From positions 1 through 64,000 of the forward strand of contig WFOS01000052.1 of NCBI GenBank assembly GCA_015487975.1: a stretch of DNA of 64,000 nt, read 5' to 3'. Shown here piece by piece: positions 25,889-27,647 of this stretch; the first letter of the stretch is position 1; every line of letters begins with the position of its first letter. Origin of the DNA: Ardenticatena sp. GTDB taxonomy: Bacteria > Chloroflexota > Anaerolineae > Ardenticatenales > Ardenticatenaceae. The notes under the pieces were generated by a model that was given only the letters and a program-made list of their open reading frames with translations, made no database searches and was not told where the DNA came from. A program made the translations under genes and the position numbers.

Positions 25889-25917
25889 TTGACAAAAAAA
25901 CCATCTAGCGCTATCGT
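25889..25917 (+). promoter_or_regulatory. Predicted promoter driving the FMN riboswitch transcript
   Basis: TTGACA at 25889-25894 and TATCGT at 25912-25917 with a 17-bp spacer. It is placed about 20 bp before the riboswitch P1 stem. Confidence 0.65.
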
Positions 25918-25938
25918 GAAAGCCACAGCTGAATATCG

Positions 25939-26091
25939 CACCTTCGGGGCAGGGTGAGCCCGCACCGCGATGTGCGTGGCAATTCCCGACCGGCGGTATG
26001 TTCGGCACAGACCGACGAGCCTGCGACCCGCGCAAGCGGTGGATCCGGTGAGAGGCCGGAGCCGACGGTATAGTCCGGATGGGAGAAGGTG
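25939..26091 (+). ncRNA. FMN riboswitch (RFN element)
   Basis: The conserved RFN blocks are present in order: CTTCGGGGCAGGGTGA near the 5' side, AATTCCCGACCGGCGGTA, then GATCCGGTGAGAGGCCGGAGC, CCGACGGTATAGTCCGGATG and GGGAGAAGG at the 3' side. The P1 stem is CACCTTC (25939-25945) with GAAGGTG (26085-26091). FMN riboswitches repress riboflavin synthesis or transport genes when FMN is abundant. Two intrinsic terminators follow, which fits transcription attenuation. The downstream reading frame is only a fragment of a transporter-binding protein. Confidence 0.93.
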
Positions 26092-26173
26092 GTCAGAAAG
26101 CAGCCGCGCGGTTGCCATTGGCTTGTATCGTCAGCATAGATTGCTGGCTGTGTTGCGGTGTTGCGTTTGTATG

Positions 26174-26204
26174 CCCGAAGGCCTCGATGGACTTCGGGGT
26201 TTTT
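26174..26204 (+). terminator. Riboswitch expression-platform terminator
   Basis: CCCGAAG (26174-26180) pairs with CTTCGGG (26192-26198), followed by GTTTTT. Its position about 80 bp after the aptamer suits FMN-dependent attenuation. Confidence 0.75.
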
Positions 26205-26244
26205 GTTGCAATGGGCATGCGCGTGGCTGTTGGTTTTGTCTCCC

Positions 26245-26277
26245 TGCCCGGAGATCGATCTTCGGGCATTTGTTTTT
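26245..26277 (+). terminator. Second intrinsic terminator before the truncated gene
   Basis: TGCCCGGAGA (26245-26254) pairs with TCTTCGGGCA (26259-26268; one G-U) around a TCGA loop, followed by TTTGTTTTT. It is stronger than the first hairpin and shares the CCCGA/TCGGG core with it. Confidence 0.7.
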
Positions 26278-26293
26278 GGCGGAGCGTGTATCG

Positions 26294-26718
26294 ATGCTTG
26301 AATGGCAACAGGTGCTTACACACCAGACTCGTCACCTTCGAATGACGTAAGCGATTCCATTGACCTGGTTTCAAATGGTCTGATGACCAATGAAATTAGC
26401 GTCGAAACGCGCAGCGACCTTGTCCAAGGGATGGTGCGGGCTTCATTGCGTGGGCTGGCCGATACGCTTGCCAATCCCGATGTGGTGGAAAAATACGTAC
26501 CTGAGGCTAGTGGTGAAACCGCCAAGGTGCAACGCGCTGTACTGGACGAAGCGATCTCCTTCTGGCAATCAGATGCGCTGGGGGCCAGCCGTCCCGAAGC
26601 ATGGCAGGCCAGTGTTGCGTTTATGGCTGACGCTGGCCTGATTGAGACGACGCCGAATGTTGAGACGTTGTTTACCAATCAGTTCGTCGACGTGGCGTCG
26701 GATTCTTTATGGCGATAA
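26294..26718 (+). pseudogene. Truncated NMT1/THI5-like (RibY-type) substrate-binding protein fragment
   Basis: From about 26340 to the stop at 26718 the frame encodes a segment (DLVSNGLMTNE, LVQGMVRASLRGLADTLANPD, PEAWQASVAFMADAGLI, FTNQFV) that resembles only the C-terminal third of NMT1/THI5-like ABC substrate-binding proteins. These include RibY, the binding protein of the RibXY riboflavin importer. About 200 N-terminal residues and any signal peptide are absent. Part of the 'NPD...KYVPE' region also looks shortened. The ATG at 26302 opens this frame but gives no plausible N-terminus. A better start with a GGAG site, at 26294, reads MLEWQQVLTHQTRHLR in another frame and stops after 18 codons. 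An intrinsic terminator closes the unit. I interpret it as a deletion remnant. Confidence 0.7.
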
Positions 26719-26754
26719 CTGCTCGCGACTGGGGGGACGTGAGCAGTTGTCGTA

Positions 26755-26794
26755 CGGGGGTGCGGCTGGGGGGACGCGCCCCCGTTTTGTTTTT
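26755..26794 (+). terminator. Intrinsic terminator after the truncated RibY fragment
   Basis: CGGGGGTGCG (26755-26764) pairs with CGCGCCCCCG (26775-26784; one G-U), followed by TTTTGTTTTT. A smaller hairpin AACTGCTC/GAGCAGTT lies just upstream. It ends about 25 bp before the GTG start of the next gene. Confidence 0.88.
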
Positions 26795-26819: not shown

Positions 26820-27647
26820 GTGTTCGAGACACTCTATCCGCGTCGCATTGTCAGTCTGGCCGCAGAAGTACCAGCGATTTTGAAAGCAGTGGGGGCATTC
26901 GAGCGACTGGTTGGTGTCAGTGCATTCGCCACCTACCCGGCTGATGTCGAAGCGTTACCGCGTGTTGGTGGGTTTTCAACGCCAAACATCCGACGCATTA
27001 TGGAGTTGCAGCCCGACCTTGTGATAACGACCAGCGACATTCATGCCGATATCACTGCCGAACTGGTACGTATGGGGGTTCAGGTGGTGAGCTTGAACCC
27101 ATCTCGGTTGGAAGATGTGTATCGCAACATGTTACTGATTGGCGGTTTGGTGGGGCGTGTGGAACGTGCAGAATGGCTCGTCGCACGCATGCAAGCCGAG
27201 CTCGCAAACCTCGCGCGTTCACTTTCCTTGCCGGTGCCGGTACGGGTCTATTTTGAAGAGTGGCCGGAACCGATGGTGTGCGGGATTGGCTGGGTGAGTG
27301 ATATCATTCATTTGCTGGGGGGCGAAGATGTTTTCCGGGAGCTCGCGCTTCGTCAAAAAGCCGCACAGCGTGTTGTTACGCCGGAGATGGTGCTTGAACG
27401 TCAACCAGATGTGATCGTTCTTTCATGGTGTGGCAAACCAGCCGATAGAGCGCTCGTCAAACGGCGCCCAGGCTGGCATGCCCTGGCCGCTCTACGCGAA
27501 GACCGTATCTTCGAGATTCCTTCCGACGTTATTTTGCAGGCAGGCCCTCAACTGGTCGAGGGCGCACGCTTGCTTGCCGATGCGCTTCGCATTGTATCCC
27601 AAACCAAGCAGAAACCGATCGAATCAATCGAAGCGGAACGATCATGA
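26820..27647 (+). CDS. BtuF/FepB-like cobalamin- or siderophore-type binding protein without signal peptide
   Basis: 275 residues from a GTG start at 26820 preceded by GAGGAGGGAGA. The fold signatures are RIVSLAAEVPAILKAVGA at the N-terminus, the VGGFSTPNIRRIMELQPDLVIT segment (about 57-78), the long connecting helix, and a second lobe with EWPEPMVCGIGWVSDIIHLLGGEDVF. These are typical of class III substrate-binding proteins for vitamin B12 or iron complexes (COG0614). No signal peptide or lipobox is present and no permease or ATPase lies nearby. The protein is therefore probably cytoplasmic, with a binding rather than transport role. Its stop overlaps the sulfotransferase start (ATGA). Confidence 0.8.
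   Translation: MFETLYPRRIVSLAAEVPAILKAVGAFERLVGVSAFATYPADVEALPRVGGFSTPNIRRIMELQPDLVITTSDIHADITAELVRMGVQVVSLNPSRLEDVYRNMLLIGGLVGRVERAEWLVARMQAELANLARSLSLPVPVRVYFEEWPEPMVCGIGWVSDIIHLLGGEDVFRELALRQKAAQRVVTPEMVLERQPDVIVLSWCGKPADRALVKRRPGWHALAALREDRIFEIPSDVILQAGPQLVEGARLLADALRIVSQTKQKPIESIEAERS

Follow-up and report, generated by a model that had tools for sequence, protein, structure and literature searches.

Remains of an FMN-riboswitch-controlled ribXY operon, most probably inactivated by an internal deletion, in an Ardenticatena lineage

The window analysed here, a 64,000-nt stretch of a contig from Ardenticatena sp., contains an FMN riboswitch followed by fragments of the riboflavin uptake genes ribX and ribY. 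The aptamer (RFN element), located on the plus strand at 25936..26094, was matched by Rfam cmscan with the FMN model RF00050 at 92.1 bits (cut-off 66.2, E 7.7e-20) over the full model, 1-138, and is the sole match at the Rfam gathering level in the whole window. In the covariance-model alignment, the closing helix P1 and the conserved core are found, with a CACCUUC/GAAGGUG pair. A sigma-70-like promoter, TTGACA-17-TATCGT, lies upstream on the same strand (25889..25917) and aligns with TTGACA-17-TATTGT of G001, the one sister species on which our within-genus comparison is based. The expression platform contains terminator hairpin 1 (~26174..26199, plus strand), which is followed by TTTTTG and was recognized by reading the sequence and by alignment to terminator 1 of G001, and terminator hairpin 2 (26245..26268, plus strand), which is followed by TTTGTTTTTG and aligns with terminator 2 of G001. 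The initial annotation had proposed a complete aptamer, a promoter and two intrinsic terminators; the Infernal run that it called for recovered the entire FMN model, and the promoter and both terminators have counterparts at equivalent places in the sister species.

The aptamer is 152/159 identical to that of G001, and the leader outside it is weakly conserved (124/199). The 5' strand of the aptamer, ACCUUCGGGGCAGGGU, is complementary to the 5' arms of terminators 1 and 2. Its best partner is the segment 26241-26254, comprising the 5' flank and 5' arm of terminator 2, with a duplex energy of -22.4 kcal/mol; in 200 shuffles of the leader, the best duplex had a mean of -15.4 kcal/mol (sd 2.2) and a lowest value of -23.1 kcal/mol. 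The equivalent terminator-2 site of G001 is likewise the best partner of its aptamer 5' strand, at -20.2 kcal/mol. From this we infer FMN-induced termination at two serial terminators, an ordinary mechanism that matches the pairing. When FMN is plentiful, the aptamer would be stabilized and both successive terminator hairpins would be freed, so that transcription stops; without FMN, the aptamer 5' strand could pair with the 5' arms of the terminators and transcription would reach ribX. The switch itself probably still works.

Downstream of the switch, the start alone remains of what would be a complete RibX permease gene. This remnant (26294..26343, plus strand) begins at the ATG at 26294 with MLEWQQ..., compared with MVEWQR... 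in G001, and retains only ~15 codons; its reading frame now closes at 26350, after 18 codons. The 3' end of ribY, identified by alignment to G001 as the C-terminal ~123 codons (26344..26718, plus strand), begins within ~50 nt of the ribX start and out of frame with it (DVSDSIDLVSNG in the window versus YVSDYIDLVSNG in G001). The deletion junction lies somewhere between about 26304 and 26344, poor conservation of the ribX N-terminus preventing a more exact placement. The ribY remnant reads as an open ORF because a chance ATG at 26302 is in its frame. The product of this ORF (26302-26718, 138 aa) aligns with residues 211-338 of the 339-residue RibY of G001 at 81% and only just reaches the cut-off of the Pfam NMT1/THI5 family, at profile positions 175-214 of 216, while its first ~15 residues are the ribX start in another frame, not RibY. 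Both matches place it as the C-terminal third of a RibY-like protein, as first annotated, and not in a complete unrelated family. Of a complete RibY, with a signal peptide and both lobes, the locus retains residues ~211-338 of 339, minus five.

At the syntenic place in G001, we found the order promoter, aptamer, terminator 1, terminator 2, ribX (271 aa) and ribY (339 aa), which is the full gene pair that the initial annotation suggested looking for in close relatives. The window and G001 share a DNA ligase, a WD40-like protein, a peptidase-like protein and a 200-aa ORF upstream, and a cobalamin-type binding protein, a sulfotransferase, a glycosyltransferase and a phosphodiesterase-like protein downstream, with several of these names resting on sequence reading only. 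The window locus is orthologous to, and syntenic with, the FMN-regulated ribXY of relatives. Compared with G001, it is shorter by a net ~1.4 kb, and the missing stretch extends from ~codon 15 of ribX to ~codon 211 of the 339-codon ribY. No intact copy was detected elsewhere in the genome that the window belongs to (116 contigs, 94% complete): the RibY query from G001 matched the stub alone, with no second ribY, and the RibX query from G001 had no match. The RibX query did give matches in G001, G003, G006 and G007, which served as positive controls. Two further NMT1 domains in the genome were considered as RibY copies and rejected, as the RibY query did not match them.

The intact syntenic ribXY of G001, the fusion of the ribX start to the ribY end, the lack of a second copy and the decay of the stub support the view that the uptake operon was recently deleted, one of the two options originally raised. 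We therefore consider, with a probability of roughly 0.9, that the locus is a standard Chloroflexota-type FMN-regulated ribXY uptake operon that was inactivated in this lineage by an internal deletion of ~1.4 kb, presumably in a single event. Its present transcript would contain the 18-codon ribX stub and the out-of-frame RibY C-terminus, without the signal peptide or the first lobe; because only these remnants are encoded, nothing useful would be made from it. An assembly or binning artefact, in which ribXY would be intact in the living organism and the apparent deletion would stem from the assembler or a minor strain, appears quite improbable. The genome is fragmented and an intact copy may lie in a gap, but synteny runs on at both flanks and the junction is unique in the genome, with no repeat to explain a misjoin. 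A repeat-driven chimeric junction was also considered and discarded, as the genome holds no other copy of the junction and merely 19-23 nt chance matches to it.

The condition of the stub bears on the same question. There are no stop codons or frameshifts in its 123 codons, and its pN/pS against the G001 gene is 0.129, compared with 0.14-0.26 for the intact neighbours. The low ratio and the absence of stops indicate that the stub was under selection until recently and that the loss is young. We also observed a 15-nt in-frame deletion at about 26481/26482, which removes the residues EAFDI of G001; among these five, the Ala is conserved in 30/30 and the Phe in 29/30 orthologs. Strongly conserved positions are kept at 33/40 in the stub versus 39/40 in G001. 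With G003 as the outgroup and positions before the junction excluded, about 13 lineage-specific substitutions fall on the branch of the window versus 5 on that of G001, a difference that is suggestive but not significant alone. Judged from these changes, the stub is in early decay, which is the strongest argument for a real loss over an assembly error, since a missing conserved stretch of five residues and changed conserved positions are not expected of such an error. The 123 open codons and the pN/pS of 0.129 might instead mean that the stub is still selected as a functional short protein. We find this scarcely credible, since such a protein would have neither the signal peptide nor the first lobe, does not share the frame of the native start and has lost the conserved Ala-Phe pair, and the low pN/pS is mostly history from before the deletion.

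The other option originally raised was that the switch has been retained as an FMN-responsive small RNA, which would end at the tandem terminators and act in trans. The aptamer, the promoter and both terminators are intact, and the locus probably continues to yield a short transcript that depends on FMN. The same parts, however, serve the intact ribXY in G001, and because the tandem terminators also precede the intact ribX there, they are no sign of a new small-RNA role. In addition, the deletion is too young for anything to be learned from the conservation of the switch, and the leader outside the aptamer is conserved at just 124/199. We found no positive support for a trans-acting RNA at this locus and regard it as very unlikely.

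Behind the ribY remnant, two tandem hairpins (26715-26750 and 26754-26785, assigned to neither strand) share the loop RCTGGGGGGA, as found by folding and alignment to G001. The pair folds at -44.9 kcal/mol (z -4.7) and is 68/69 identical to G001, the one change turning a U-G pair into a C-G pair; among all 70-nt windows of a 10-kb alignment (mean 71%), it ranks second only to the aptamer. The closing terminator of the initial annotation is the second of these two conserved hairpins; a T-run after it makes the pair terminator-like in the window but is not conserved in G001. Both genus members have a single copy of the pair, and within the reach of the searches it is confined to this genus; it was not found downstream of ribY in G003, G006 and G007. 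A widespread repeat was dismissed, as single-loop matches elsewhere were about as frequent as in the reversed control, and Rfam gave no significant family for the closing hairpins. The minus strand of the pair resembles 6C RNA (RF01066) in that it presents two neighbouring hairpins, each with a six-C loop; as a candidate 6C RNA it was rejected at 22.3 bits against the cut-off of 47 (E 0.64-2.2). A 6C search of 199 genomes of the class gave no match above the limit, under strict filters with which the control set was found in one genome only.

On the comparison of two sequences, three roles are conceivable for the hairpin pair: leader of the cobalamin-type binding-protein gene, small RNA, or terminator with unusually high conservation. 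We hold it possible, though doubtful, that selection has preserved the pair, with no dependence on ribXY, as a structured RNA element peculiar to the genus, either within the leader of this btuF-like gene or as a small RNA in its own right. If so, the loops shown would be two RCUGGGGGGA or, on the opposite strand, two C6 loops as in 6C RNAs. As a separate observation, a cobalamin-riboswitch-like sequence, GGGGAAAGACCGGTGCAAGTCCGGCGCTGTCCCGCAACGG, lies at ~1360-1450 of locus L062 (G026:C121), ahead of a homolog of the Peripla_BP_2 gene of the window (26820-27644), suggesting that this downstream gene of the window binds cobalamin.

The genome carries a second FMN switch on contig C62 (92.6 bits), which precedes ribD, ribE and a fused ribBA, genes that were named from their sequence without a family scan. 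With these ORFs behind the second switch, riboflavin biosynthesis appears intact, and the cell is probably still able to make riboflavin through the ribD-ribE-ribBA operon. G001 likewise has two FMN switches. Counting the window's own genome and its relatives, an FMN switch is followed by a same-strand RibY match in 36 genomes; the spacing from switch to ribY is mostly ~860-1300 nt, a few values lying above this range and one below it, compared with 250 nt in the window. In three genomes of another genus (g2) of the same family, G002, G004 and G005, no RibX or RibY match was found; each has one FMN switch, and that of G004 precedes ribD-ribE-ribBA. Uptake thus seems to have been lost, with biosynthesis kept, more than once in the family, genus g2 apparently having lost it separately.

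Two other loci among the relatives also depart from the full arrangement. In G038, the locus L133 (C228, 2419-3799, minus strand) is a second decayed FMN-switch-ribXY locus, in which ribY is without ~residues 149-202 and ribX is seemingly shortened; this genome also bears a fuller ribXY on C267. In G024 (C74:5412-6765, minus strand), the FMN switch lies just 128 nt ahead of ribY, which indicates that ribX was lost there or is placed elsewhere.

If the operon was lost in the way that we propose, the locus offers a clean snapshot of an early stage after operon loss, in which the regulator is intact and the genes are gone. It also illustrates that the synteny of one sister genome can explain orphan-looking riboswitches beside broken ORFs without invoking new RNA functions. 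Taken with the seeming lack of ribXY in a second genus of the family, the locus suggests that riboflavin uptake is dispensable in this family where biosynthesis is present.

Within its own genome, the locus is comparable to the ribD-ribE-ribBA operon on C62, which has the same aptamer class but controls intact biosynthesis genes and has a different leader after the aptamer. The closest known systems are the ribXY operons of Chloroflexota. FMN switches led to the prediction of RibXY in Chloroflexi, where every ribXY operon analysed was preceded by an FMN switch (PMC3766115), and complementation in E. coli confirmed that RibXY of Chloroflexus aurantiacus takes up riboflavin (PMC4418817). The window locus resembles these operons (PMC3766115, PMC4418817) in having an FMN aptamer and transcription terminators immediately ahead of a ribX-ribY gene order, in the lack of an ATPase gene in the pair and in the NMT1/THI5-type binding protein that RibY represents. 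It differs from them in that only the start of ribX and the C-terminal third of ribY are left, fused out of frame, and it is a degraded member of the FMN-regulated ribXY kind.
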